From Phaeobacter inhibens DSM 16374 (GTDB lineage: Bacteria; Pseudomonadota; Alphaproteobacteria; Rhodobacterales; Rhodobacteraceae): a stretch of 64,000 nucleotides of DNA. The stretch spans positions 1,116,001 through 1,180,000 of the forward strand of contig NZ_KI421498.1 of the NCBI RefSeq assembly GCF_000473105.1. Reading direction: 5' to 3'. Shown piece by piece: positions 1 to 13,915 of this stretch. Position 1 is the first letter of the stretch; each line of letters begins with the position of its first letter. The notes below the pieces were generated by a model. That model saw only the letters and a list, made by a program, of their open reading frames with translations. It had not been told where the DNA came from and did not search any database. Made by a program: the position numbers and the translations under genes.

Positions 1-537
1 CAGCACCATGGCAGCGGCACTGTTGACCGGCTCCAGCGCATCAACAACGGGCGAGCGATAAAGCAGATGTTTCTGATCCATCGACAACACCAGCGCCTTG
101 CGCCGTCCCGATCTGAGGTAGCGGGCTGCACAATGCATGGCAAAAAGCGGTGCCGTGCGCCCGCGATCAGAGATCGCAAAGCCGAACCCATCCTTCACCC
201 CGAGGTGATGCAGGGCGAAATTGGTCACCGAGGTGCCCAGGTGGATATCCGGCAACCAATGTGCCATCAGCACCAGATCAATATCGGACAGGTCCATGCG
301 GGACGACAGATCATCCAGCAGTTCCCGCGTCATGGCCGCGTAGGGTGCGCGGTCATCCGCCGTCAGCCACGTCTGCACATTGCTGTCAGCAGATTGGTAG
401 GTCTTGCCATTGGCACGGAAAAACCGGCTGTTGTAGTCCTCCCAATAGTCCACTTCCTTGAGCCAGTTGGGATCTGCGGCTTCCAATCCGCCGAATTCTC
501 GGCAGATCAGACTACCGGGCGCAATGCGCAACGTCAT
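1..537 (-). CDS. Ketosynthase-III-like (thiolase-fold) protein lacking the catalytic Cys; partial
   Basis: An open frame of 179 codons starts at ATG 537 and runs off the left edge. The start overlaps the stop of the preceding gene as ATGA, so it is the last visible gene of the operon. The pattern follows the N-terminal half of the KAS III/thiolase fold: a DLSDIDLVL strand (83-91), the nucleophile region near 118-134 (ISDRGRTAPLFAM), then the RYLRSGRRKALVLSMD helix and strand. Where FabH has its active-site Cys this protein has Arg/Gly (around 125-127). Cys136 lies further along the helix and is not in register. This suggests a non-condensing partner, comparable to a chain-length factor, or an acyltransferase-like relative. 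The C-terminal half with the His and Asn sites is not in the window. The fold assignment is by motif reading only. Confidence 0.6.
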   Translation of the reverse strand, partial: MTLRIAPGSLICREFGGLEAADPNWLKEVDYWEDYNSRFFRANGKTYQSADSNVQTWLTADDRAPYAAMTRELLDDLSSRMDLSDIDLVLMAHWLPDIHLGTSVTNFALHHLGVKDGFGFAISDRGRTAPLFAMHCAARYLRSGRRKALVLSMDQKHLLYRSPVVDALEPVNSAAAMVL

Positions 538-3020
538 TGATCCACCCCTGCGGTATAAGACCGGTAGGCGTTCAATAGATGGATGTTGCTGGTGCCCTCC
601 ATATACTCAAAGGCCTTCACGTCCCGGCATCGCCGCCGCAGTTCGGCATCCTGCAAAAAGCGCATCGGGTCCTGATCCGTGATCCGGCGCACCACCTGAT
701 CGACAAAGCTCACGGCCTGCATTTTGACCTTGCTGATATCCTGAACCTTGGGGCGGCGGTTTTCCTGCGCACGGATCACCTTAACCAGTTGCACCAACAG
801 CGCAGTGTGGCTGGCCAACAAGTCCTGATATGCCGGGAGCCGTGTCGGATCTTCCAACATCAACTCAATAAGGCCGCGCCCTGATCCCAGCGCCATCGCG
901 GCAACCATGGGGCGGTTGCGTTCAAAGACACCGTTGATGGCCATAAAGCCATCCCGCAGCGATCGTCCTCCGCTGCCAAGGATCATGTCCTGCGTCACCG
1001 GGAAGTCGGTCAAGGTCATCTGGCAGAGATCCGCCCCGCGCAGACCATTGGTGCCAAGCCGTTCGATTTTCACGCAGTCGGGCGCATCAGATGGTGCAAT
1101 CATCACCAGCCCCATGCGACCGGTTTCCTCGATATGCGCGAAGAACAGGCCAATTTCGGCGCGGGCAATGCCGCCAACCAATGTTTTGACACCATTCAGG
1201 ACAAGTTTTCCATCTTTCAGGCCCAGCGTACTGCGCCCGTTAGAGGCATCGGATCCAGCATCCGGTTCTGTCACCGCAAAGAATGTCCCCTGCGGGCCAA
1301 AGCGGTATCCGTCAAAGAACCGCGCAATCTGTGCGTCGGTGCCTGTTGCCAGCACCGCGCCACCGGACAGCGATGGCCCCGGTAGCGACAATATGCAGTT
1401 GGCGTCAAACCGTGCCAGACGTTCGACCATGGCGACATGCAGACCATAGGGGCAATCTGAAATGCCAAGGCCACTGTCACGCAATGGGAAGCCGTTGAAT
1501 TTCTCAGGCACACCGATGGTGGTCAGCGCACGCACTGTTGGGTTCTCCCACAGTGCGGTCCAGCTTTCGGGGTCGCGGTCCAGACGGGCACCGGTTTCGC
1601 GAAATAGCGTCTGCAAGCCGGTCAGTCGCTCCAGGCAGGGGTCTGAAAACGGTGTTCCCTCCAGCCCATTTCCGGGTGCCGAGGAATAAAGATCGGCCAG
1701 CGCCGCGGGAGCGTGGCCAGTGCTGGGATTGGCGTGGGCGGCCAGCCGCAGGTCAGATGGCTGCTGCACTGCCAGGCGCGCCTCTACCGTGTCGCGGGAC
1801 CGAACGAGCCGCAGCTCTGTGCCGTCGATCATGACTTCTGCGGGGGCGCCGAAGCCGAGGAAATTGACCGGTGAAGCCGTTGGTCCATAAGCGCCGGATT
1901 GCCCGATGGAAATCAGATCGCCCACCTGCGGTGTTGCCATCAGGACAGATTTACCGATCACGTCCTGCGGCGTGCACAGCGGGCCGGTCAGGGTCCAGGG
2001 CTGCGCCGCCTCGTCGTCGATCTCTGCCTTGCCGTCACGCAACAAGCGGATTGGGAAATTCTTGCGCAGAAAGCCCTGACCAGCCGCAGCGACATGGACG
2101 TTGGAGCCACCATCGCAGACGGCAAAATGCTCGCCCTTGCTGCTCTTGGTCTGCTGTACACGGGTCACAAACTGCCCGGACGGACCAGAGAAATAGCGCC
2201 CTAGTTCTATCACAACACGGGTCTTTGGATGTGTGGCGCCAAAGCTCTGGACAAGTGGCGTGACCGCCTGACCAAGAGCGTTCAGATCCAGCTCTGTCTC
2301 ACCGTCGTAATAGGGGATACCAAATCCACCACCAACGTCGACAAAATCGAGGGGGGCCTTGAGGCTTGATATGACCTCAGTCGCCAGGTTGAGAATGTTG
2401 CGCACATTGGCGACAACAGTTTCGTGGGTCAGGATACGAGTGCCCATATAGGCATGCAGACCGCACAGCCGCAGATGAGCGCAGCTCTCTGCCTGCTTCA
2501 GCACTTCGGACAGCCCGGATTGGTCGATACCAAATTGGGTTGGGCGACCGCTCATGTTCAACTTCGCACCGCCTGCGTGAAAGTCTGGGTTGACCCTCAG
2601 CGCGATATTCTGGACACGACCCAGCTGGCGCGCCAAGGCATCAATTTGAGTCAGCTCGTAGGCGGACTCGACCACGATCGCCTTGATCCCCAATTCAATG
2701 GCGCGCGTCAGCTCTGTCTCGGATTTGCCGGGGCCCACCATCAAGATGCGTTGAGGGGTGGCACCGGCCTGAAGGCTCGTTTCCAGCTCCAGCAGAGAGG
2801 ACACTTCGCAGCCAGCCCCATGGCCATGCAACACCCGCGTCACCGAAAGGTTCGGGTTGGACTTGAGCGAGTAGAAGAAATCCACCTGCGGGAGGGCTGC
2901 GCGCAGCGCATCCAATCGCCCCCGCAGCACCGAGGCATCATAGAGGTAGAACGGCGTCCCCGCGGTTGTCGCAATCTCGTCGATCAGGCGCAGGTCGGTG
3001 TTTGGGAACAAATCAGTCAT
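534..3020 (-). CDS. Fusion: PLP-dependent amino-acid decarboxylase + acyl-CoA dehydrogenase-like domain
   Basis: 828 residues. Residues 1 to about 415 are a fold-III (alanine-racemase-type barrel) Orn/DAP/Arg decarboxylase: PLP lysine K53 in FFYSLKSNP, phosphate-binding loop VDVGGGFG (227-234), and the CDGG (302-305) and GPLCTPQD (346-353) segments with the conserved Cys349 and Asp353. After a linker, about 470-828 is an acyl-CoA dehydrogenase: FAVTEPDAGSD (581-591) for FAD binding and MEGTSNIHL near the C-terminus with the usual catalytic Glu (about 808). Relatives of the first domain, such as BtrK of butirosin synthesis, decarboxylate an aminoacyl group held on an ACP. Here an ACP gene ends 3 bp upstream, so decarboxylation followed by alpha,beta-oxidation of a tethered amino acid is a reasonable inference. 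The two domains are in one frame without a stop. An AAGGGG Shine-Dalgarno precedes ATG 3020. Confidence 0.85.
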   Translation of the reverse strand: MTDLFPNTDLRLIDEIATTAGTPFYLYDASVLRGRLDALRAALPQVDFFYSLKSNPNLSVTRVLHGHGAGCEVSSLLELETSLQAGATPQRILMVGPGKSETELTRAIELGIKAIVVESAYELTQIDALARQLGRVQNIALRVNPDFHAGGAKLNMSGRPTQFGIDQSGLSEVLKQAESCAHLRLCGLHAYMGTRILTHETVVANVRNILNLATEVISSLKAPLDFVDVGGGFGIPYYDGETELDLNALGQAVTPLVQSFGATHPKTRVVIELGRYFSGPSGQFVTRVQQTKSSKGEHFAVCDGGSNVHVAAAGQGFLRKNFPIRLLRDGKAEIDDEAAQPWTLTGPLCTPQDVIGKSVLMATPQVGDLISIGQSGAYGPTASPVNFLGFGAPAEVMIDGTELRLVRSRDTVEARLAVQQPSDLRLAAHANPSTGHAPAALADLYSSAPGNGLEGTPFSDPCLERLTGLQTLFRETGARLDRDPESWTALWENPTVRALTTIGVPEKFNGFPLRDSGLGISDCPYGLHVAMVERLARFDANCILSLPGPSLSGGAVLATGTDAQIARFFDGYRFGPQGTFFAVTEPDAGSDASNGRSTLGLKDGKLVLNGVKTLVGGIARAEIGLFFAHIEETGRMGLVMIAPSDAPDCVKIERLGTNGLRGADLCQMTLTDFPVTQDMILGSGGRSLRDGFMAINGVFERNRPMVAAMALGSGRGLIELMLEDPTRLPAYQDLLASHTALLVQLVKVIRAQENRRPKVQDISKVKMQAVSFVDQVVRRITDQDPMRFLQDAELRRRCRDVKAFEYMEGTSNIHLLNAYRSYTAGVDQ

Positions 3021-3023
3021 CCC

Positions 3024-3305
3024 TTACACCCCTTCCGGCAGACACATACGTGCCTCAAGAAACCCGCAGAGGCTCGAGATGCCCGAGACCACTGTGTTCA
3101 GTCCGCTTTCGCCAACCGACAAAAACTCGGTCGGATCTATCCGGGTGACTTCCCCCAATGCGGTCACAAACTGCACCAGTTCGAGCGAGTTCAGGAGGCC
3201 CGAAACCCCATAGATAGGGCTGCCATTCAAGGCGGCTTCAACACGTTCCGGCCCAAGGCCAATTCCTTGCAGAGCGTCGCGGACAATCGATTGGTGATCT
3301 GTCAT
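3024..3305 (-). CDS. Acyl carrier protein-like protein (A)
   Basis: 93 residues, in the size range of carrier proteins. LLNSLELVQFV places the candidate phosphopantetheine Ser at residue 40, at the start of the second helix. The usual DSL is NSL here, so the residue before the Ser is Asn instead of Asp. ATG 3305 has a strong GGAG eight bases upstream. The gene lies 33 bp after ketosynthase-like gene A and 3 bp before the decarboxylase/dehydrogenase fusion, so it is the natural carrier for both. No phosphopantetheinyl transferase or adenylating enzyme is visible in the window. Attachment of the cofactor is inferred. Confidence 0.7.
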   Translation of the reverse strand: MTDHQSIVRDALQGIGLGPERVEAALNGSPIYGVSGLLNSLELVQFVTALGEVTRIDPTEFLSVGESGLNTVVSGISSLCGFLEARMCLPEGV

Positions 3306-3338: not shown

Positions 3339-4265
3339 TCAGTTGACCTGAACCAATGTGCAGGTCGCCGTAGCGCCCAGGCCGATGCTGAACAGAAGCA
3401 GCCGGTCGCCAGCTACCAGCTGGTCGTCCTTGATGAGCTGCATCAGATTGATGAACGGGTCGGCACCAAAGCAGTGCCCAAAGCGCGCAATCGTCGAGAG
3501 GCAGACCTTGTGGCGGTCAAATCCAAGGATCTGAGCAATCATGATCCAGGACGCCATGTTGACGTTATGCGGCAGAATAAAACGCACATCCTCCATCCCA
3601 AGGCCGAACCGCTTCAGCGCGTTGGTCAGGGTGTTGCACGCAAAATCGAGATACATGTCTTCGAACCCCTCAAGATAGGGTTCATCAAGATGTCCGGTGT
3701 TCTGCCAGAACCGCGTTTCGTGCTGGGTGTGACTGTCGACAACCCGCAGGCGGCTGGCCTCGCGCCGCACAAGAACCGCCGCCGCGCATTCGCCCATAAT
3801 CGTGGTGTTCTTGATCAACCGCACATCAGGGTGGAAAGCTTTTTCAGCGATCAGGACAAGCCCGGTATCTGCATCGCCCAGCAATTGATCCATTGCCGAC
3901 AACATCGACAATCCCGTTGCACAATGGTTCATAGTGGCGCTGAACACCTCCAGCCCCTGTTCGGCAAATGGCGCAAGGATCGAAGAGCTTTCGCCATCGC
4001 ACTGGGTGATTGCCGGCAGGGTATGGCAATGGGATACATGGCTAAGTGCGGCGGCACTGCGTGGATTGCGCGCCAGCAGCCTGTCCACCGCACCTGAAGT
4101 CATCTGCGCCAATGGGGCCTGTTCATCGTAGTGAAACGCCTCAAAACCAAAGAAGCGCGAAAACATGCGCCGCTGGTTCCGGCTTAACGAAAGATCCTCG
4201 GAAATCTCTTCCAGGAACTCCGTCCGCTCAGGGTAATCCAGTTCAAAATCAACGATATGCAGCAT
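3339..4265 (-). CDS. 3-oxoacyl-ACP synthase III-like protein (A), Cys-His-His
   Basis: 308 residues, close to FabH length. The nucleophile Cys is C115 in NHCATGLS, and the His is H233 in PHNVNM (FabH PHQAN). The third residue, Asn in the FabH GNTSAAS loop, is His264 in ARFGHCFGAD. The C-terminal strand GDRLLLFSIGLGATAT matches the glycine-rich end of the family. The protein may condense a starter with a malonyl- or aminoacyl-ACP, or act as an acyl or ester-forming transferase like other divergent KAS III proteins. The ATG at 4265 overlaps the stop of the hydrolase gene as TGATG, implying translational coupling. A GTG one codon earlier is possible. Confidence 0.8.
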   Translation of the reverse strand: MLHIVDFELDYPERTEFLEEISEDLSLSRNQRRMFSRFFGFEAFHYDEQAPLAQMTSGAVDRLLARNPRSAAALSHVSHCHTLPAITQCDGESSSILAPFAEQGLEVFSATMNHCATGLSMLSAMDQLLGDADTGLVLIAEKAFHPDVRLIKNTTIMGECAAAVLVRREASRLRVVDSHTQHETRFWQNTGHLDEPYLEGFEDMYLDFACNTLTNALKRFGLGMEDVRFILPHNVNMASWIMIAQILGFDRHKVCLSTIARFGHCFGADPFINLMQLIKDDQLVAGDRLLLFSIGLGATATCTLVQVN

Positions 4266-5215
4266 CACCGGCTCCCCGCGTTCGACGTTTCATGACAGAA
4301 CCGCTCCATCAGGCCGAGCAGCTCTGGATGGTGCAGCACAGATCTGTGATTGCAGTTGCGCAAGTAAATTGGCATGAGCCCGTCGCGTGCGGCACAGATG
4401 CGCTGCGCCTCGGCTGGGGGCACCTGCCAGTCGTGCTGTGCGTGGATCACCAACATCGGCAAGGTTGTTTTCCTGCATTCGACCGGTCCGATCTCTGCCA
4501 GCTCTCTGCCGCAGGTTTTTGCATATCCGCGCATCAGGGCAGCGCCGGTTTTGGCGGGCTGTCCGGTGAAGCGCAGGTAGAGCTCCATGAGGCGGTCCAG
4601 TGAAGATGGTGTCGAAAGGGTGACCAATCGGCGCGCCTTGAGCCCCATCCCCAGTGCGATCATCGCAATCAGACCACCAGCTGAATGTCCAATCAGCACC
4701 TCATACGGCTGATCCTGCGGGCCTATTTTCTTAAGGCGCCGCGCGACAGCCACAAAGCTGCGCACAGCGCCGCGCGATTTTCCGGTGCCGGGCAGATCCG
4801 GCACATCGACGCGAAAACCACGATCGGCCAGATCCTGCGCCAGTGGCAGCATCATGCGTCCGTCTGCGTTCCAGCCGTGAACCAGCAGCACACGTGGCCC
4901 GGTTGTGGGACCAAACTGTCGAACGTAGATGCCTGCACAGTGAAAGGCATCGCTGGCGGTGATCAACTGCTGGTCGTGGTTCGTTGGGATCGGTGTCGGC
5001 GTTTCTGATTGATTTTGATGAAACCGCCGTAATAACAACCGCGCCGCCAATGTTGGTGACAGACGATCCAGCAGGTCTATCTCCAGCCGCCGCAGCCGGG
5101 ACCGCGCGGTTCGCAACCGCAACGCTGGTTCCTGCGGCGCAGACCGCCGCACTGCGCGGAGCCAGCGATAACCGCCTTGTGCAAGCAAACCGGGCAAGGC
5201 GAGTTCATACAGCAT
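4265..5215 (-). CDS. Alpha/beta hydrolase (possible thioesterase/acyl hydrolase)
   Basis: 316 residues from ATG 5215. This start is preferred to a TTG at 5248 because it fits the overlap with the MATE gene and has AGGGG upstream. An N-terminal region of about 95 residues precedes the hydrolase fold. Motifs are LLVHGW (oxyanion strand), GHSAGG with nucleophile S178, acid D262 in HAQHDWQVP, and a C-terminal His near 290 (NCNHRSVL). It could release the product from the carrier protein as a thioesterase or hydrolyse a pathway intermediate. The substrate cannot be read from the sequence. It overlaps the genes on both sides and belongs to the operon. Confidence 0.8.
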   Translation of the reverse strand: MLYELALPGLLAQGGYRWLRAVRRSAPQEPALRLRTARSRLRRLEIDLLDRLSPTLAARLLLRRFHQNQSETPTPIPTNHDQQLITASDAFHCAGIYVRQFGPTTGPRVLLVHGWNADGRMMLPLAQDLADRGFRVDVPDLPGTGKSRGAVRSFVAVARRLKKIGPQDQPYEVLIGHSAGGLIAMIALGMGLKARRLVTLSTPSSLDRLMELYLRFTGQPAKTGAALMRGYAKTCGRELAEIGPVECRKTTLPMLVIHAQHDWQVPPAEAQRICAARDGLMPIYLRNCNHRSVLHHPELLGLMERFCHETSNAGSR

Positions 5216-6581
5216 CGCGGCGCCCCTGTTGGCGTAGGAGGAAAGCAAACTGAAGCAGGAACAAAGCGAACGTCAGACCACTGACCACGCACAGCAGCCA
5301 GATCGCCATATTCAGATCATGGCCAACGTATTGAGCGTAGAACACAACGCCACCGGTGATGATTTCAGTGACGATGGCAATGATAAGGACCTGCGTTGCA
5401 CGCCCCAGCTGCTCCATCACCACCTGAAGCATCGCCGCCCCTGACACAAAGAAGAATGTCAGTTGCAGGCCCTGCATCACCAGATCCGTTGCCGCACGCA
5501 ATTCGTTGGTGTTCTGGCTGGGCGAGACAAGAAGCCGGATCATGTCATCGCCCCAGAATGGCAGCAACGCGGTCAGCAACCCGTAAAACCCCAGCATCAC
5601 GGGCACACCAATGCCCAGATACTGCAGCCGTGCCGTCGGGGTGCTGTTTTCTGCCAACTGGTTCACCAGGATCGCGATAACGGAACCAATGGCGATGGCC
5701 GGTATCATAAAGGACACCCGGAACCGCATCACGACAAGAAAGGCCGAGGCATATTCACTGCCGAACTCTGCCAGCACCGGAAAGATCACGGCAGCGCTGA
5801 GAGAGCCCACCAAAATCGTCAGCGCAATCGGGGTGCCCACAAACATCAACAACTGCGTCGTGCGAGCTTTGACCTGTTCCTTGAGATGGGTAATGGCCTG
5901 ACCGGCCTCACGTTTGAGCAGCAAAACGATGACCGGCAACATCACAAGCGGGCCGACCAGATTACCGATCAAAACGGCCTCAAACCCCATATTGTATTCG
6001 GTTAGCAGCACGTATGTGGTTGCCAGATCCAGCACTGCAAGCCCAAGAAACGGCAGCAGGCTGCGCGCCAGTTTGCCCTGCCCACGCATGGCAGCATAGA
6101 AAATGTCAAACACGACAAACGCGCTAAGGGATAGGATATATAGCGGCAGATAGTCGAGCGTTTGGCGAAACAGCGGGTCCTCTATCGAAACATATTGAGA
6201 GACGGCGTAGGCGATGGCCGCAAAAAGGCTCAGACCAATCAAAGCGTAGCCTGACATCCGCCAGGATGCTGGGAGAATTGCAGAGCGCGGCCAGTTGTTT
6301 TTGGACCGGGCGCTAAAAACCTGATTGGAGATCGCCAGACCTTCCATCAGGGCCAGCACCAGCAGGAACGCAGGCTGCAACATGGATTGCAGTTCAAGCG
6401 GCGTTGCCTGTGGCGCACGAGCCAGGATCGCCACCTTCCCCAGATGCAACCCCGACACGATGATCGCCCCGGTCGCAAAGGGAATGGCCATGACGATGAT
6501 TTCGGACAAGACCGACCAGACTGAACGGCGCGGTGGTGGCAGGATGTCATCCGCGCCGGCTGGAAAAATGGCTGGTTGCAT
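5205..6581 (-). CDS. MATE-family multidrug/metabolite efflux protein
   Basis: 458 residues with about 12 hydrophobic segments. The two-bundle layout and an internal QLGRATQVLIIAIVTEI-type stretch resemble MATE/polysaccharide-flippase antiporters. ATG 6581 was chosen because GGAG lies about ten bases upstream and it starts 4 bp after the stop of the preceding gene. A longer frame to 6617 would overlap that gene. Within a biosynthetic operon such a protein most likely exports the product or gives self-protection, driven by Na+ or H+. Substrate and coupling ion are unknown. Confidence 0.8.
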   Translation of the reverse strand: MQPAIFPAGADDILPPPRRSVWSVLSEIIVMAIPFATGAIIVSGLHLGKVAILARAPQATPLELQSMLQPAFLLVLALMEGLAISNQVFSARSKNNWPRSAILPASWRMSGYALIGLSLFAAIAYAVSQYVSIEDPLFRQTLDYLPLYILSLSAFVVFDIFYAAMRGQGKLARSLLPFLGLAVLDLATTYVLLTEYNMGFEAVLIGNLVGPLVMLPVIVLLLKREAGQAITHLKEQVKARTTQLLMFVGTPIALTILVGSLSAAVIFPVLAEFGSEYASAFLVVMRFRVSFMIPAIAIGSVIAILVNQLAENSTPTARLQYLGIGVPVMLGFYGLLTALLPFWGDDMIRLLVSPSQNTNELRAATDLVMQGLQLTFFFVSGAAMLQVVMEQLGRATQVLIIAIVTEIITGGVVFYAQYVGHDLNMAIWLLCVVSGLTFALFLLQFAFLLRQQGRRDAV

Positions 6582-6585
6582 GGTG

Positions 6586-7122
6586 CTAGCTCCGCACTGA
6601 GGGGGAATGGTCGCCAAGGTCGGAAAAACGGACGGACAGCGGCGCAGCGCCTGCGCATTGGTCCGTCATGGGCATATCGGTGCAGCACTCTGCTGAGAGC
6701 ACATAGAACCGGCTGTCCCAAAATTCTGGGCTTTGTGCCACGTCTTCAAGCACAACGATGGTGGGAAACAGTTCCAGCAGCGCCTGCACAAACCCGCGCG
6801 CTGAGCTGGCGGTGGCCACACTGCTGATACGCAGGGCATGCACCGGACCGCTGTGCTGCAGGTCATTCAGGATATCGAGCAATTTAGGCGAGCGCTCGTC
6901 CGTGTGGTAGTCGCGGTGCAGGTAGACCAGCGGCACGCGGCTGTTCGGGCCAAGTCCCGGCGCAGACGCGCGATCCGCGGGATTGGATGCGGCGTGGCCC
7001 CTGCACGTCTGATCGAGCGAGATCTGACATGGCGAGGGACCGGATAGAGGTGTTTGGACACGGCCCTGGGACACCAAATTCATCCCATTAAAATCAAATA
7101 AATAGTGACTAGTACCCGTCAT
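6586..7122 (-). CDS. Orphan protein of the biosynthetic operon
   Basis: 178 residues, no family recognised. It starts at ATG 7122, 2 bp after the stop of the dehydrogenase-like gene, with GGGG upstream, and ends 4 bp before the MATE start, so its place in the operon supports it as real. The N-terminal 70 residues are low in obvious structure. Residues 65-140 alternate hydrophobic strands and helices (VPLVYLHRDY, VHALRISSVATA, FPTIVVLEDVA), faintly like one half of a thiolase-type domain without a nucleophile Cys. A Cys pair (ECC) sits near 145. There is no signal peptide or membrane segment. Function unknown. Confidence 0.6.
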   Translation of the reverse strand: MTGTSHYLFDFNGMNLVSQGRVQTPLSGPSPCQISLDQTCRGHAASNPADRASAPGLGPNSRVPLVYLHRDYHTDERSPKLLDILNDLQHSGPVHALRISSVATASSARGFVQALLELFPTIVVLEDVAQSPEFWDSRFYVLSAECCTDMPMTDQCAGAAPLSVRFSDLGDHSPSVRS

Positions 7123-7124
7123 GA

Positions 7125-7805
7125 TCAGCCCCGTTCCCGATCATCAGAAACCCCGTCAAATGCAGGTCGGATCAGGGCGAAAAAGATCGCGTCAAGGAAC
7201 TCCAGCCCGTGGCATTGCCCCTCCAACAGCCCGCGTCCGCCCATCAGCTTGGCCGCCTTGCCAAACAAAACACCGATGTCGCGGTGCGCGGACAGCATCA
7301 TCGTTGTTGTCGGCGCGCCCGGCAGTTGGATCTCTCCCATGAGACGATCCACCGCAGCGCTGATTTCAGAGAATTGCGCCTTAATCAGCGGCTGATGTAA
7401 CAGCTTGATACCAAAACTCTCGCGCCCCTCCAGATGGCCGAAGGCGAGATCAAGACTGCGCATCAGCCAACCCAACCGAAGGGCTACGAAAGCTGGATTT
7501 TGGACATCAGCAACCTTGGGTGTACCAGCATCGCTTTGTGATAATTGAAGGTCGAAGGCCGCGAGGCCGACCTCCTCCATCCGCGCTGTGAGCGTCGGCC
7601 TATTGCCCAGATCACTCAGGTCGAGGATCATCGCAACATCAGATGTGCCAAAATCTGACGCATGCAGCGCCATCCCATTACACGCCGGATAGGCTGGCTG
7701 TCCCGACAGCATCCGACCCAGCTCTGCCAACGCCTCCTTTGGCGCAGCCCTTCGCGCCAAAGCCATCAGTGTTGGCAAGCTGTCTGATGTGTCCAGATCA
7801 AACAT
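7125..7805 (-). CDS. Truncated acyl-CoA dehydrogenase-like protein
   Basis: 226 residues from ATG 7805, which overlaps the end of the ACP gene by 8 bp and has GCAGG six bases upstream; a TTG at 7826 is the alternative. Residues about 105-215 match the helical C-terminal domain of acyl-CoA dehydrogenases (RLGWLMRSLDLAFGHLEGR, then AHRDIGVLFGKAAKLMGGRG). The N-terminal part is too short for the usual alpha and beta domains, and the YEGT segment carrying the catalytic Glu is absent. It is probably not a normal dehydrogenase. It may be a binding or scaffold subunit, or an eroded copy of the dehydrogenase half of the downstream fusion. The frame itself is intact. Confidence 0.65.
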   Translation of the reverse strand: MFDLDTSDSLPTLMALARRAAPKEALAELGRMLSGQPAYPACNGMALHASDFGTSDVAMILDLSDLGNRPTLTARMEEVGLAAFDLQLSQSDAGTPKVADVQNPAFVALRLGWLMRSLDLAFGHLEGRESFGIKLLHQPLIKAQFSEISAAVDRLMGEIQLPGAPTTTMMLSAHRDIGVLFGKAAKLMGGRGLLEGQCHGLEFLDAIFFALIRPAFDGVSDDRERG

Positions 7806-8067
7806 GTTCGACCTGCCGCGCACCAATACGGTCTTCGATGTGGCTGACCAGGGATGCTGCGTGGTTGAACTCTTGCTGCCCTATGGCATCAGGGTCAAAC
7901 TGCAAACCGTCGATCTGGTCTTCAAGCGCCAGCAAAAACTGAACAAACATGTAGGAATCCAGATCGAACGCCTTGTCCAGTTCAGTCTCCGGTGTGAGAC
8001 CGCTAACCTGGCGTTCCGTGACCTCGGAGAGCGCAGTTTCGATTGCCTTGAAAATCATCGCTGTCAA
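7798..8067 (-). CDS. Acyl carrier protein-like protein (B)
   Basis: 89 residues. FDLDSYMFVQFLLALED gives the phosphopantetheine site: Ser38, with the classical Asp before it but Tyr after it (DSY instead of DSL). A third-helix region follows. The start is uncertain: TTG 8067 has AGAGG at good distance, while an ATG three codons later (8058) has a weaker site. It lies 15 bp after ketosynthase-like gene B and overlaps the dehydrogenase-like gene, repeating the arrangement of ACP A downstream. It is distinct in sequence from ACP A, so the two probably serve different enzymes. Confidence 0.75.
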   Translation of the reverse strand: MTAMIFKAIETALSEVTERQVSGLTPETELDKAFDLDSYMFVQFLLALEDQIDGLQFDPDAIGQQEFNHAASLVSHIEDRIGARQVEHV

Positions 8068-8082
8068 TTTTCCATACCTCTT

Positions 8083-9030
8083 TTAAGTGAAGTCCGTTCG
8101 TTCCAGCAGACAGGTCGCAAAGGTCACGCCTGTCCCCGCAGCCAGTACGAACACCTGGGTGCCGGGGGAAATTTGGTTGGGGTGTGAAATCTCGTAGTCG
8201 GTCAGATTGACAAAAATGTCAGAGCAATAACCGTGACCGAGGCGTTGAATATCGCCCTGAAAGCACCTCGGCTCCCATTCGAAATGGCGCAGCAGAGCGC
8301 GCGTGACCGGCAGGTTGAGATTATGCGGCAAAACCCGGAAATCATCGCTGAGGACGTCCCCGAAATTATTCAGGCTGTCCTCGACAAAGCCAATCAATCC
8401 GCTCAGATACTCGTCCTGTAGCGCACGCCGGTCATCTGCCGCCATCGCATCAGGGTTCTGAAAGAAACGCGGCATGTGCCGCACGCTGGTGTTTAGTACA
8501 GTCCATTTTCCGGATCGTTTATCTGGACCCGCGTTGAACAACGCGGCCGTCGGCAGCTCGGCCAATAGACCCACGGGCAAACGCGCCACATTATAATGAA
8601 ACGCCTTTTCACCTGTCAGGATAATGACAGGGTGATCATCCTCAATCGCCTGGATAAACCGCATCGCCGCAAGCGCAGAAGCGCAGCTGGTCATCGTCAG
8701 CGAATTGACCTCCCAACCAGCAAGACCGTGATCATCGGCGAGGCAACGGAGCCAGTCCTGATCTGCAAACCCATGATGGGTCTGGGTGCGGCAATAAAAG
8801 AGAGTACCGCTCTGCGTTACAAGCTGCGCGTTGGTTGCCAGCACGCCATCAAGCGCTGCGCCCAGCATTCCGTTCAGATCATCCTCCTGCAGTCCGACGC
8901 TCTCAAGTTCGAAAAAGCGTTGGTACATCTTCAAGGCGCCAGCACTCAGCCCATGGCTGGGTCCAAGATCGCACAGCGGAACACGCGTGATTTCGTCAGG
9001 TGCAAAATGAATGTGGTCGAGAGACAGCAT
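8083..9030 (-). CDS. 3-oxoacyl-ACP synthase III-like protein (B), Cys-His-His
   Basis: 315 residues; first gene of the operon. Nucleophile C116 in MTSCASAL, H236 in PHNLNL, and again a His (H266, RLGHGYCSD) where FabH has Asn. Overall layout matches protein A (3339-4265), but the two have diverged widely, which argues for separate specificities instead of a recent duplication. ATG 9030 has AGGA about eight bases upstream. The next gene is an ACP 15 bp away. It probably performs a condensation or acyl transfer from ACP B; substrate unknown. Confidence 0.8.
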   Translation of the reverse strand: MLSLDHIHFAPDEITRVPLCDLGPSHGLSAGALKMYQRFFELESVGLQEDDLNGMLGAALDGVLATNAQLVTQSGTLFYCRTQTHHGFADQDWLRCLADDHGLAGWEVNSLTMTSCASALAAMRFIQAIEDDHPVIILTGEKAFHYNVARLPVGLLAELPTAALFNAGPDKRSGKWTVLNTSVRHMPRFFQNPDAMAADDRRALQDEYLSGLIGFVEDSLNNFGDVLSDDFRVLPHNLNLPVTRALLRHFEWEPRCFQGDIQRLGHGYCSDIFVNLTDYEISHPNQISPGTQVFVLAAGTGVTFATCLLERTDFT

Positions 9031-9698: not shown

Positions 9699-10901
9699 TT
9701 AGCCTGCGGAACGAAGGGCCGTGGCCAGTTTCACCCGTGTCGCGGCAAGGGCTGGCAAGGCGCCACCAATCATGCCGATGGCGATCCCCAGCAATGCCCC
9801 ATCGCGAAGAACGCTGATGGTGACCTCAAGTTGAAACGCAGTGGTTGTATTATTTGGGCCAACCGTGCTGGCCTGCCAACCGTTGAACAACAGCCATGAT
9901 ACCGCCGCGCCCAATACGGCCCCGAAAGCAGATAGGACCACCGCCTCAACCCAGGTTCCGGTAAACGCGGACAAACGCGAAAAGCCGAGCGTGCGCACCG
10001 TGGCGATCTCCATCGACCGATTGGCGACTGAGGTCATCATCGTGTTGATCGCGCCAACCGTGGCCCCAATCGACATCAGGATTGCCAGCGGCCAGCCGAA
10101 CATGCGGATCAGCGTCGAGGTTCGCGCCGATTGTGCGGACAGCAATTGCACCTCGGTCACGGCCGCCAACGGCGTTTGCGACAGAGCAGGCAACGCAGAC
10201 TGCAAAGTTTCCAAACCATTGGGACCTGCAAGGGCAGTTCGCAGGATCTGCACCTGCCCCATCTGATCAAACGCAGATTGCACGGCCTCTAGCCCACCCC
10301 AGATTTCAGATTCCATTGCACCGCCACCGGTTTCAAAATGGCCGACAACCTGCCAATCGACGGCCCCCAACCGAACGCTCTGACCGATCCCAAAGACGCC
10401 CGCGCGCGCAGCAAGGTCCCGGCCGACAACAATTTCCCGTGTGCCAGGAACAAAGTTGCGGCCAATAGCGACAGCCGCATTCTCTCGCAGCGTGATCCCC
10501 GCAAGGTCCATACCGCGCAGCGCCAACGTCTGAAGGGATCCATCGGCGGCCGACTGGATTTCAACCGGAACGACGATCTCGCGCGAGAAAATCACGGCGC
10601 CGGTTTCATCGCGTTGAAGACCAAGATCGGCTGAGGTTGCTTGCAGGCTGCGGATCACCCCGGATGGAATGTCAGAGCTGGTTTCCTGATTGGTGCCACC
10701 GCCAAGGATCACCGCAATCCCAGCCGAACCATTTCCGGCGAGCGCGGTTTCAAAACCCTTTGCCATGGCGAGGAACCCAGTCAACACCGCCACCACCAAT
10801 GCCACGGAAAGCACCATGGACATCGAAATCCACAGTCGTTTGGGCAGACTGCGAAGATTGGCAGAGACCATCACGATGATTTGTTTCATATGCAAATACA
10901 T
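9699..10901 (-). CDS. ABC transporter permease, FtsX/MacB-like (1)
   Basis: 400 residues with the MacB-type layout: a membrane segment at about 15-35, a periplasmic domain, then three membrane helices in the C-terminal third (about 265-390), ending in LPALAATRVKLATALRS, typical of FtsX permeases. It starts 3 bp after the second permease gene. It works with the ATPase (12044-12751) and the adaptor (12779-13915), a set that resembles MacAB or lipoprotein-type exporters. These use ATP to move periplasmic substrates by a mechanical stroke instead of transporting across the inner membrane. Substrate unknown. Confidence 0.85.
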   Translation of the reverse strand: MYLHMKQIIVMVSANLRSLPKRLWISMSMVLSVALVVAVLTGFLAMAKGFETALAGNGSAGIAVILGGGTNQETSSDIPSGVIRSLQATSADLGLQRDETGAVIFSREIVVPVEIQSAADGSLQTLALRGMDLAGITLRENAAVAIGRNFVPGTREIVVGRDLAARAGVFGIGQSVRLGAVDWQVVGHFETGGGAMESEIWGGLEAVQSAFDQMGQVQILRTALAGPNGLETLQSALPALSQTPLAAVTEVQLLSAQSARTSTLIRMFGWPLAILMSIGATVGAINTMMTSVANRSMEIATVRTLGFSRLSAFTGTWVEAVVLSAFGAVLGAAVSWLLFNGWQASTVGPNNTTTAFQLEVTISVLRDGALLGIAIGMIGGALPALAATRVKLATALRSAG

Positions 10902-10904
10902 AGC

Positions 10905-12047
10905 TTATCTCGTTCTGAAAGCGTTGGAGACGGTTGTGCGCATCGCGAGCGCTGCGGGCAGACATCCGGTCAGAACGCCCAGCAACACTGTGATTACCAA
11001 AGATTTGATCACGACTGGGCCTGTCAAAACCAGACCAAGTGCAGGGCCTGTGAGCTGTGTTGCGGCTTTGGTCAGAGCAATCCCGACCGCCCCGCCAACC
11101 AGAAAAATAAGCAGGGTTTCACAAAGAATAAGAACCACGATAAAGCGGTTATTGAAGCCCAAAGTCTTGAGCACGCCGATCTCGAATGTCCGTTCACGGA
11201 CCGCGAACAGCATTGTGTTGATGACGATCATCAGGATGGTCACGAATGCCGCCCCTACAACCAGCGAGACGATCAATTCCACATCGGCGAACTGGCGCAG
11301 GAAGGCTTCGAGGAATTGTTTTTCCGATTGGGTGCGTGTCGGTGTACCCGTATTGGCGAACAATGCATCGATCTGAGACGCCAGCGCGCTGGCCGCCACT
11401 TCGGGCACCGGTTGGACGACAAATCCGTCTACTGTATCCACATCGCGGCTGCGCAGTGCATTCACGTAGTCATAGTTCGCCAGCATGAAATATGTATCGG
11501 TGCTTGGCGTTTTTCCTTCAAAAATACCGCCGACTTCGAACCGCCAGTTCCGGTTTCCGCCCTGCTGCATAATGTTGAACGAGGTGATCTCAATCCGCTG
11601 TCCCGCGCGCCATCCTTGGGCATCTGCGAGGGCTCGGCCAACCAGCACGCGATCCCTGCCCTGTTTGAGCGCGGCCAAAAGATCCGAGGTCAGCGCGAGG
11701 CTGTCACCGTTTATCCGAGCAAAATCATCTACGGCCACCGCATTGGCAACCACGACATTGCGCTCGACCTCACTAAACCCCCGCAGGCGGGACATATAAG
11801 CGACCTCAGCGACGCCGTCCAACGCTGCGATCCGGCGCAGATGCGCAATTGGCAGGGTCTGGCCCCGACCTGATTTATTCATCACGCCCAGCACATCGTC
11901 ATTGGCCGCTGCCGATCCTTGCGTGCCAGACAGGAAGCTGGCCGTCAGACCGTAGATAAGAAAGGCAACCGCGATGCAGAACATCAGTAGCAGCGTCCGC
12001 ATCGGTTTGCGCCAAGCATTGCGCCTCGCCAGTGTCAGAAAAGTCAT
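10905..12047 (-). CDS. ABC transporter permease, FtsX/MacB-like (2)
   Basis: 380 residues with the same topology as its neighbour: one N-terminal helix, a periplasmic domain, and three C-terminal helices starting near 235. The segment FEIGVLKTLGFNNRFIV is the typical cytoplasmic coupling loop of FtsX proteins. ATG 12047 overlaps the ATPase stop as ATGA. With the other permease it should form a heterodimeric exporter, unlike MacB, which is a homodimer with a fused ATPase. Confidence 0.85.
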   Translation of the reverse strand: MTFLTLARRNAWRKPMRTLLLMFCIAVAFLIYGLTASFLSGTQGSAAANDDVLGVMNKSGRGQTLPIAHLRRIAALDGVAEVAYMSRLRGFSEVERNVVVANAVAVDDFARINGDSLALTSDLLAALKQGRDRVLVGRALADAQGWRAGQRIEITSFNIMQQGGNRNWRFEVGGIFEGKTPSTDTYFMLANYDYVNALRSRDVDTVDGFVVQPVPEVAASALASQIDALFANTGTPTRTQSEKQFLEAFLRQFADVELIVSLVVGAAFVTILMIVINTMLFAVRERTFEIGVLKTLGFNNRFIVVLILCETLLIFLVGGAVGIALTKAATQLTGPALGLVLTGPVVIKSLVITVLLGVLTGCLPAALAMRTTVSNAFRTR

Positions 12048-12751
12048 GCGGCAGCCTCTTGTCTTTCGACGAACTGCCCCTTGTTCAGATGCAGGGTGCG
12101 GCTTGCATGGGTCGCCGCTTCGGGATCATGAGTGACCATGACGATGGTTTTCTTCAATTCGCGATTGAGAAACCCCAGAACTTCCAGCACCTCATCCGCC
12201 GAGGCCCGGTCAAGATCGCCGGTTGGTTCGTCGCAGAGTAGAAGCGGCGGATCGCTGACGATAGCGCGGGCAATGCCGACACGCTGTTGCTGACCACCTG
12301 ACATGCTGGACGGCAATTGTTTGCCACGTCCGGACAGACCAACGAGGTCAATTATTTTCTCAACCCGCGCCCGACGTTCGGCCCGGCCAATCGGCTTGAG
12401 CAACAGCGGCAGTTCAATGTTCTCAGCCACATTCAACGTCGGAAGCAAATTGTAGAACTGAAAGACAATGCCAACATTATGGGCGCGCCAGTTGGATTTC
12501 TTAGCCTCGCCCAATTGCTCCAGTTTTGAATTCCCAATCCGTACGCTTCCCGTGTCAGGGGCATCAATCCCGCTGAGAAGATTGAGCATTGTCGACTTAC
12601 CGGATCCTGATGGCCCCATCACCGCCACGAATTCACCTGCGTCGATGCCCAGGGTAAGATCAGAAAAGATCTGTATCTTCTCTTTGCTGAAGGTAAATCC
12701 CTTTGAGACAGCATCCAGCTGAATAAAGGGTGTTTTCTGGGACGCGGACAT
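12044..12751 (-). CDS. ABC transporter ATPase, LolD/MacB-type
   Basis: 235 residues. Walker A GPSGSGKST (about 46-54), signature MSGGQQQRVGIARAI, Walker B LLLCDEPTGDLD, and the H-loop in VMVTHDPEAA. The GDLD after Walker B and the short length are typical of the LolD/FtsE/MacB group that drives FtsX-type permeases. ATG 12751 has AAGGAG nine bases upstream. It lies 27 bp after the adaptor gene and overlaps permease 2 by 4 bp. Confidence 0.9.
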   Translation of the reverse strand: MSASQKTPFIQLDAVSKGFTFSKEKIQIFSDLTLGIDAGEFVAVMGPSGSGKSTMLNLLSGIDAPDTGSVRIGNSKLEQLGEAKKSNWRAHNVGIVFQFYNLLPTLNVAENIELPLLLKPIGRAERRARVEKIIDLVGLSGRGKQLPSSMSGGQQQRVGIARAIVSDPPLLLCDEPTGDLDRASADEVLEVLGFLNRELKKTIVMVTHDPEAATHASRTLHLNKGQFVERQEAAA

Positions 12752-12778
12752 AAAGGTACTCCTTATAAGAGAGGATAA

Positions 12779-13915
12779 TCAGGTATCACTCAGGGTGATA
12801 CGAATGCGGGCGGCCATGTTTGGGCGGATGCCGTCAGGTGGCTCGTCCAGTTCCAGGCGCAGCGAAATCGTGCCTCTCTCAGCAGAGACAACGGGCGAAA
12901 TGCCAACAACGCGAACCTCAAATGGCTGGTCAGGAAAACCATCAAGCACGGCCTCTCCCGTCAGACCGACCCGCAGCCGCGAGACATTGGTCTCGGCGAC
13001 TTCGGCATCGAGATACATGGAGGCGGTGTCGGTGATCACCATGAGGTAGTCGGTGTCGCGAATGGTATCGACACGGGCCAGAACGCTATTGCCGATACGG
13101 GCGTTAAGCTGGGTAATGGTCCCAGAAACCGGCGCGCGTATCGTCAGTTCATCCACGTGTTCCTGCGCAATCTCGACCTTGAGATCAGCCAGATGAATGT
13201 CTTGTTCTGCCTGTCTCAACGCGGTTTTTGCGAGGCTTAACGCTGTGGCGGCGTCCTGCGTCACGCGTTCTGATACAGCGTCTTTGGCAAGGAGGGATGT
13301 CAGCCGGTCAAAATCGCGCTCGGACTGATCCACCTCGATGCGTTTGGTTTCCAGCCGCAGCTGCGCCAGTGACTGATCAATCAATGCCGACTTCAGGGCA
13401 TATTGCGCGCCCGGATCGCTGACTGCGGCCAGCGGTTGTCCGCGTGTAACCGGGTCACCCAAAGCGACGAGAAGATCTGTTATTGTACCCTCGTATTTTG
13501 CAAAGACCGATGCGTAGTCCTGTACAAGTACGTATCCGGATCCGGTTATTTCCGCCGTCGGCATCGCCACAGGTGCGGGCTGGATGCGGGTCGTTGCATC
13601 TGAAACAGGCGTTGGTGCGATCGGCACATCTGTTGCAACTGATTGGGAGGCCGGGTCCAACAGCCCCTCCCCCCAATTGCGCAACACGGCCAAGGTTGGC
13701 AGGTCGCTGCGCCACAAGACCGCGCCGCCGGCTGCCAACAGACCGAGCAATAGGAAAATCCGAAGTGTCCAAGAGGGGCCGCGCTCTTGCCGTTCCTCTA
13801 AACTCGGTTGAGCCTCTGAGACCGTGACGGCCGAAAGTGGGGTCAAAGCCTCAGCAAGATTGCGGTGGGTGTCGGTTTGAATGTTCATGGCCAATGGATC
13901 GCCCATCGCAGCCAT
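12779..13915 (-). CDS. Periplasmic adaptor (membrane fusion protein, HlyD/MacA-like)
   Basis: 378 residues. One membrane helix near 50-68 (LRIFLLLGLLAAGGAVL) is followed by a split lipoyl domain (TGSGYVLVQDYASVF and later APVSGTITQLNARIGNSV), a coiled-coil hairpin at about 180-255, and a beta-barrel region. This is the order of domains in adaptors of tripartite efflux systems. It is the first gene of the ABC operon and should link the permeases to an outer-membrane channel, which is not in the window. The start is uncertain: ATGs at 13915, 13906 and 13888 all lack a strong ribosome site. Confidence 0.8.
   Translation of the reverse strand: MAAMGDPLAMNIQTDTHRNLAEALTPLSAVTVSEAQPSLEERQERGPSWTLRIFLLLGLLAAGGAVLWRSDLPTLAVLRNWGEGLLDPASQSVATDVPIAPTPVSDATTRIQPAPVAMPTAEITGSGYVLVQDYASVFAKYEGTITDLLVALGDPVTRGQPLAAVSDPGAQYALKSALIDQSLAQLRLETKRIEVDQSERDFDRLTSLLAKDAVSERVTQDAATALSLAKTALRQAEQDIHLADLKVEIAQEHVDELTIRAPVSGTITQLNARIGNSVLARVDTIRDTDYLMVITDTASMYLDAEVAETNVSRLRVGLTGEAVLDGFPDQPFEVRVVGISPVVSAERGTISLRLELDEPPDGIRPNMAARIRITLSDT

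Follow-up and report, generated by a model that had tools for sequence, protein, structure and literature searches.

A BtrK/VinO-type decarboxylase fused to an acyl-CoA dehydrogenase in Phaeobacter inhibens, with a probable role in dehydro-beta-alanine formation and a candidate FAD-binding mini-subunit

The DNA analysed here is a 64,000-nucleotide stretch of Phaeobacter inhibens DSM 16374 (contig NZ_KI421498.1, positions 1,116,001 to 1,180,000), hereafter the window. An open reading frame (ORF) on its minus strand, at 534..3020, encodes an 828-aa protein without internal stops, in which a pyridoxal 5'-phosphate (PLP) decarboxylase is followed by an acyl-CoA dehydrogenase. An earlier note on this DNA had proposed such a fusion, and the Pfam domains, the uninterrupted frame and the orthologues described below bore this out. 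The Pfam search detected Orn_Arg_deC_N (34-278), Orn_DAP_Arg_deC, Acyl-CoA_dh_M (581-672) and Acyl-CoA_dh_1 (690-820), all above the gathering scores. The parts of the protein were located as follows.

1761..3020, minus strand: BtrK/VinO-type PLP decarboxylase domain, aa 1-420 (Pfam; BtrK as nearest solved relative; Foldseek)
2862-2864 and 1974-1976, minus strand: codons of K53 and C349 in the decarboxylase domain
1680..1760, minus strand: variable disordered linker, aa 421-447 (predicted local distance difference test score (pLDDT) <50 at 426-447; gapped in the orthologue alignment)
534..1679, minus strand: acyl-CoA (acyl-ACP) dehydrogenase domain, aa 448-828 plus stop (Pfam; 4n5f/4m9a profile match; motif comparison)
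597-599, minus strand: codon of the catalytic E808 in the dehydrogenase domain

The nearest solved relative of the decarboxylase half was BtrK (7ru7/2j66, E 8e-77), assigned as L-glutamyl-[BtrI acyl carrier protein (ACP)] decarboxylase, and Foldseek also returned 7ru7 as the top match (target TM 0.92). K53 pairs with the Lys of BtrK 'slkann' and C349 with the Cys of 'gplctp', and the half carries the PLP lysine, the GGG motif, the C-terminal Cys, SGAYG and the BtrK fold. An ordinary diaminopimelate decarboxylase was rejected, as the score was under the NCBIfam lysA and PEP1 cut-offs and BtrK was nearest instead. The dehydrogenase half matched the profiles of short-chain acyl-CoA dehydrogenases, with E808 corresponding to the EGTS Glu of 4n5f and 4m9a; it has the middle and C-terminal domains of the family, the catalytic Glu in an EGT motif and a TEPxxGSD segment. 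Every fusion had conserved both this segment and E808 together with its EG motif. The AlphaFold2 model contained two confident domains with a disordered linker at 426-447, and residues 809-823 had pLDDT <50. K53, C349 and the catalytic Glu near 808 were thus found exactly where the earlier note had placed them. Its broader statement, that both domains keep their key residues, was valid for the catalytic residues but not for the dehydrogenase domain as a whole, which lacks two motifs for binding the ADP part of flavin adenine dinucleotide (FAD).

Full-length fusions were found in two closely related genomes and one Phaeobacter metagenome-assembled genome (MAG), with full-length orthologues in G005 (98%), G003 (86%) and G001 (about 55%). 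Further full-length fusions were detected in Yoonia, Tritonibacter, Epibacterium, another Phaeobacter and Pseudooceanicola, as well as in Rhizobium, Mesorhizobium, another Rhizobiales isolate and a Gemmobacter fulvus plasmid. The fusion is rare in the family of the window, where a near full-length match was present in five of the 394 genomes. One of these five (G396:C1:623322-625712, L130; 47% identity) contains one in-frame TGA; the genes are split there, or the copy is broken.

As the decarboxylase and dehydrogenase genes are adjacent and overlapping in the genome G016, a single indel could join them, and an assembly artefact or frameshift uniting two neighbouring genes had to be considered. 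However, about a dozen independent assemblies, complete plasmids included, contain the fusion and represent two orders of Alphaproteobacteria, and in the maximum-likelihood tree of the decarboxylase half all 14 fused sequences were located on one side of a single branch (95/97). The third-position GC contents on the two sides of the junction were alike, at 0.70 and 0.68. Because of the recurrence in independent assemblies and the single clade, an artefact at the junction, which the earlier note had named as a possible refutation, was ruled out, and we regard its probability as practically negligible. The neighbours of the fusion clade in the tree were Agrobacterium vitis and G016, both of which possess separate adjacent genes in the same cluster, and the simplest history suggested by the sequences would be a single fusion event joining two neighbouring genes. 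The complete split-gene cluster of A. vitis VAR03-1 is located on plasmid pRvVAR031a (L121, 7945-27114), next to insertion sequence elements and a TraM gene.

Ordinary acyl-CoA dehydrogenases bind the ADP part of FAD through the R-x-x-F-G...Q and GGxG motifs of a neighbouring subunit. Motif comparison detected neither motif in any of the 14 fused dehydrogenases, and both were also absent from the separate relatives in A. vitis, G016, Actinobacteria and Cohnella. Among three control dehydrogenases of this genome, one had both canonical motifs and the other two retained the segment with variant motifs; GGxG was present in two of the three. The missing motifs are present in another protein encoded in the same cluster, orfY, whose gene is located as follows.

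7125..7805, minus strand: orfY, 226-aa truncated acyl-CoA dehydrogenase (Pfam; 1ivh profile match; fold search; co-occurrence)

orfY carries R-x-S-F-G and L-M-G-G-x-G motifs without the catalytic EGTS motif. Eight of nine orfY homologues matched Pfam Acyl-CoA_dh_1 at a permissive E of 0.1, and the homologues aligned to isovaleryl-CoA dehydrogenase (1ivh) exactly at R-x-x-F-G-Q-K; L-M-G-G-x-G was invariant among them, and the EGT catalytic segment was absent. The predicted structure of orfY (pLDDT 83.5) is a shrunken dehydrogenase with shortened N-terminal and middle parts, and its top Foldseek matches were dehydrogenases. The best VIA match had a Z of 12.8 with an rmsd of 6.6 over 195 residues, and the VIA-align matches listed were of the dehydrogenase fold or close flavoenzymes, without singling out the ChsE beta type. 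In plasmid records, the homologues are labelled as dehydrogenase or hypothetical protein.

orfY was found in every intact cluster examined that contains the fused or separate dehydrogenase, namely the fused set, A. vitis, G016, Cohnella, seven actinobacteria (two weakly), a Legionellales MAG fragment and Rahnella. Rahnella had appeared to be an exception, with no orfY within L124, but the gene lies just past that stretch. Among 195 related genomes, orfY occurred only in the five with the decarboxylase/dehydrogenase pair, an exact coincidence with a calculated chance of about 4e-10, although inheritance of the cluster makes the occurrences non-independent. Two extra dehydrogenases were also observed: in G016 (L039, 4022-5793), orfY is directly followed by one that likewise has no ADP-binding motifs, and Rahnella L124 (12496-13644) contains a second dehydrogenase copy similar to it.

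A comparable division is known in the mycobacterial alpha2beta2 enzymes ChsE4-ChsE5 and ChsE1-ChsE2, in which the catalytic Glu and flavin site are on one chain and the contact to the FAD ADP-ribose on the other (PMC11153573, PMC8399759). The fused domain, with the catalytic Glu, and orfY, with the ADP motifs, split the motifs alike, here as a pattern in sequence. Both chains of the ChsE enzymes are full-size dehydrogenases, whereas orfY consists of only 226 aa and its catalytic partner is fused to a decarboxylase. The absence of both motifs from the fusion, their presence in orfY, the co-occurrence and the ChsE-like division suggested that the fusion and orfY may form a two-component dehydrogenase in which orfY supplies the FAD-ADP-binding half in trans. 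That this is a new acyl-ACP dehydrogenase architecture, in which the catalytic chain has been fused to the decarboxylase making its precursor, has lost its own site for the ADP half of FAD and obtains that function from orfY, with the unfused pairing in Actinobacteria, Bacillota and Gammaproteobacteria, is a proposal to which we give an even chance.

The other genes of the cluster, including several enzymes resembling beta-ketoacyl-ACP synthase III (KAS III), are listed below.

9699..13915, minus strand: ABC exporter comprising two FtsX-like permeases, an ATPase and an HlyD-type adaptor (similarity; homologues annotated as ABC/FtsX/RND adaptor)
8083..9030, minus strand: kas1, KAS III-like acyltransferase with C116, His in LPHN and Asp in CSDIF (Pfam ACP_syn_III_C)
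7798..8058, minus strand: ACP3 with the Ser site DLDSYMF (translation; counterpart annotated 'acyl carrier protein' in Tritonibacter and A. vitis)
6586..7122, minus strand: orfX, conserved protein without a Pfam match (synteny)
5205..6617, minus strand: MATE-type efflux transporter (weak NCBIfam matE match; synteny)
4265..5248, minus strand: alpha/beta hydrolase (Pfam Abhydrolase; synteny)
3339..4268, minus strand: kas2, KAS III-like acyltransferase with C116, His in LPHN and Asp in GADPF (Pfam ACP_syn_III_C; motif residues)
3024..3305, minus strand: ACP1, 93 aa, Ser site NSLEL, candidate carrier, 3 bp upstream of the fusion (synteny; sequence)
1..537, minus strand: kas3, degenerate KAS III-like, beginning of a 291-aa ORF that extends past the window
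Downstream, past the window start (L006): kas4, VinN-type ligase, ACP2, and two stand-alone adenylation enzymes with a cytochrome P450 between them
Further along L006 in this genome: an FAD oxidoreductase, an LLM monooxygenase, another dehydrogenase (acad2) and a phosphopantetheinyl transferase (PPTase)

The genes are arranged in the order exporter, kas1, ACP3, orfY, orfX, MATE, hydrolase, kas2, ACP1, fusion, kas3, kas4, ligase and ACP2, and the fusion clusters share the gene order between kas2 and the first adenylation enzyme. ACP1 had no Pfam match and was syntenic in all of them. When residues were assigned by motif, kas1, kas2 and kas4 had Cys and His with Asp replacing the canonical KAS III Asn, while kas3 was without the KAS III catalytic residues. 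In AFC-BC11 biosynthesis, AfcL has a Cys/His/Asp triad and acts as a peptidyl transferase (PMC12186527). The degenerate kas3 (window 1-537 into L006 16649-18537) overlaps the intact kas4, and the sequences suggest that the two KAS III-like chains, one inactive and the other active, may form a heterodimer.

The domains, the catalytic residues, the pocket of the ligase, the gene set, the single fusion origin and the motifs lost from the fusion and found in orfY could be read from sequence. With ACP1 encoded 3 bp upstream and a VinN-type ligase in the cluster, we infer that the decarboxylase domain acts on an ACP-bound, side-chain-linked amino acid. By family profile, the pocket region of the ligase scored 112 bits for VinN versus 68 bits for the second-best solved protein, and VinN D230 and R331 were retained, with Thr in place of S299, in all eight alphaproteobacterial clusters aligned. 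Since VinN was closest in the pocket region and D230 and R331 were kept, L-Asp linked through its beta-carboxyl is most likely the substrate.

The cluster brings together what is expected of a dehydro-beta-alanine kit: a VinN-type ligase, an ACP, a BtrK-like decarboxylase, a dehydrogenase and KAS III-like enzymes. The identical gene kit was found in every fusion cluster. Two systems with the same types of enzymes have been characterised, or partly characterised, in Burkholderia. For bolagladin (BolO/BolC/BolN/BolQ), deletion of bolQ led to beta-alanine instead of dehydro-beta-alanine, and deletion of bolN abolished production, which was not rescued by beta-alanine (PMC7756342). The BolN/BolQ system of Burkholderia gladioli has a BtrK-like decarboxylase, a dehydrogenase, a VinN-type ligase, a free-standing ACP and KAS III-like enzymes, like the Phaeobacter cluster; it differs in its separate proteins, a tetramodular nonribosomal peptide synthetase and a citrate-primed fatty acid (PMC7756342). 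The Phaeobacter cluster differs in turn by the fusion, stand-alone adenylation enzymes, P450, flavin monooxygenases and ABC/MATE export. For AFC-BC11 of the Burkholderia cepacia complex, L-Asp was put on AfcK by AfcQ and decarboxylated there by AfcP in vitro; the homologue of BolQ has been assigned as AfcE (PMC12186527). AfcP/AfcE share with our cluster the enzyme types, KAS III-like release and the lack of condensation domains (PMC12186527), whereas they are separate proteins accompanied by citrate synthase and O-methyltransferase genes, neither of which was recognised in the Phaeobacter cluster. BtrK (butirosin) and VinO (vicenistatin) act on a side-chain-linked aminoacyl-ACP; the fold and catalytic residues of our domain, compared with BtrK, are alike, although neither enzyme is fused to a dehydrogenase.

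In our view, the fused protein is probably a two-domain enzyme acting in dehydro-beta-alanine biosynthesis. For this pathway we infer the substrate, the sequence of reactions, the heteromer and the product as follows. The VinN-type ligase would activate the side-chain carboxyl of L-Asp and load it onto an ACP, probably ACP1 or ACP2, and the N-terminal BtrK/VinO-type PLP domain would strip the alpha-carboxyl to give beta-alanyl-S-ACP. N-acylation would probably follow, carried out by one of the cluster's KAS III-like acyltransferases or ligases. The C-terminal dehydrogenase, sharing FAD with orfY and using E808 as the base, would then remove the alpha and beta hydrogens to form (N-acyl-)dehydro-beta-alanyl-S-ACP, and the unit would be handed on by the stand-alone adenylation and KAS III-like enzymes, with the P450 and flavin enzymes decorating it. 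That an ACP-bound amino acid is first decarboxylated and then oxidised, as the earlier note had supposed, is thus the best-supported reading in view of the gene context, the VinN-type ligase and the precedents; it needed refinement in that direct channelling is not implied, N-acylation probably intervenes before the oxidation, and the substrate is most likely beta-linked L-Asp. The authors of the AFC-BC11 study argued that a free enamine is unstable and that AfcE requires an N-acylated substrate (PMC12186527). If this argument holds here, acyl transfer would occur between the two reactions, so the fusion would serve more to keep the two activities together than to channel an intermediate directly.

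Several points weigh against this pathway or parts of it. The ligase Thr differs from VinN S299, and the orthology to BolQ/AfcE was assigned by family and context, not by a tree. With a pTM of 0.59, the AlphaFold model does not fix the relative placement of the domains, and the co-occurrence of orfY could merely reflect inheritance of the whole cluster. The substrate is a further matter. BtrK, the nearest solved relative, itself decarboxylates L-glutamyl-BtrI and works on gamma-glutamyl-ACP, so that the decarboxylase alone would also fit Glu. In Cohnella, a related cluster has an ATP-grasp gene, reminiscent of the BtrJ type, beside the decarboxylase instead of a VinN-type ligase. As the Cohnella gene departs from the VinN type, more distant members of the family may load other amino acids. 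In a glutamate version, gamma-glutamyl-ACP would be converted in a BtrK-like manner to 4-aminobutyryl-ACP and by the dehydrogenase to a 4-aminocrotonyl thioester. We consider this unlikely here, as the cluster ligase belongs to the VinN class and retains D230 and R331 of the Asp/methyl-Asp pocket, and both precedents pairing such a decarboxylase with a dehydrogenase yield dehydro-beta-alanine.

The dehydrogenase half might instead serve another acyl-ACP, such as a fatty acyl or other aminoacyl thioester, with the fusion merely co-assembling the enzymes. Other thioesters must exist in a cluster with three ACPs, three adenylating enzymes and several KAS III-like enzymes, and the AFC-BC11 desaturase AfcC turned out to act elsewhere than predicted. 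Since exactly these two activities are adjacent or fused in alphaproteobacteria and loss of the analogous enzyme gives the bolQ mutant phenotype, this possibility appears slightly less probable still than the use of glutamate. A degenerate half with a structural, non-redox role, the oxidation being performed by the separate full-length acad2, would agree with the absent R-x-x-F-G and GGxG motifs and with the low pLDDT at 809-823. Against this, E808 with its EG motif and TEPxxGSD are kept in all fusions, the missing motifs are carried by orfY, and no acad2 was present in the cluster on the G001 contig within the 19 kb read; we regard a degenerate half as improbable.

Related gene sets were also observed outside the fusion clade. 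The actinobacterial and Cohnella sets (L049-L051, L053, L055, L056, L062, L078) consist of KAS III, decarboxylase, ACP, kas3-like, orfY and dehydrogenase genes of the same families, with orfY directly before the dehydrogenase; decarboxylase and dehydrogenase are not fused. In Cohnella L051, the locus checked, Pfam identified the gene between KAS III and the decarboxylase as ATP-grasp. Going by the title of a paper cited in PMC11204786 (reference 13), we guess that these sets may be of the enamidonin/autucedine lipopeptide type. In a small cluster of Burkholderia cenocepacia NZ_CP091013.1 (L123, 12686-22860), genes for an ACP, a VinN-like ligase, a BtrK-like decarboxylase and KAS III-like enzymes were accompanied by two dehydrogenases that seem to divide the catalytic Glu and the ADP-binding motifs between them: one, of full size, had R-x-x-F and an imperfect G-A-H-G without EGT, and its neighbour the reverse. 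This locus was not taken as the afc cluster because the gene order was different and no citrate synthase gene was recognised in it. Rahnella megaplasmids (R. aquatilis pKM05, L124 3560-24000; L132) carry the same gene set with the decarboxylase and dehydrogenase about 12 kb apart, and matches were also present in the R. aquatilis HX2 plasmid CP003404.1. R. aquatilis HX2 reportedly produces compounds with antibacterial activity towards Agrobacterium vitis (PMC9015054). As a lead only, an antimicrobial role may be considered for the plasmid clusters of Rahnella and A. vitis.

In the open-access literature searched, with most subscription journals outside its reach, no description was found of the fusion, the mini-subunit arrangement or the Phaeobacter/Tritonibacter cluster. 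The earlier note was aware of no characterised protein with this combination; in the papers searched this holds for the fusion, whereas the enzyme pair is already known as the separate BolN/BolQ and AfcP/AfcE. The reactions and enzyme types are not new; the fusion and the mini-subunit arrangement look undescribed. These findings tie an uncharacterised cluster, widespread in alphaproteobacteria from marine roseobacters to rhizobia, to the rare building block dehydro-beta-alanine, giving a product that can be searched for, and offer a testable case of a dehydrogenase divided into a catalytic chain and a mini-subunit. The fusion is also a potential ready-made catalyst for enamide precursors, and the motif-level pattern would make it possible to annotate many genes for 200-aa dehydrogenase-like proteins that have been overlooked in natural-product clusters.

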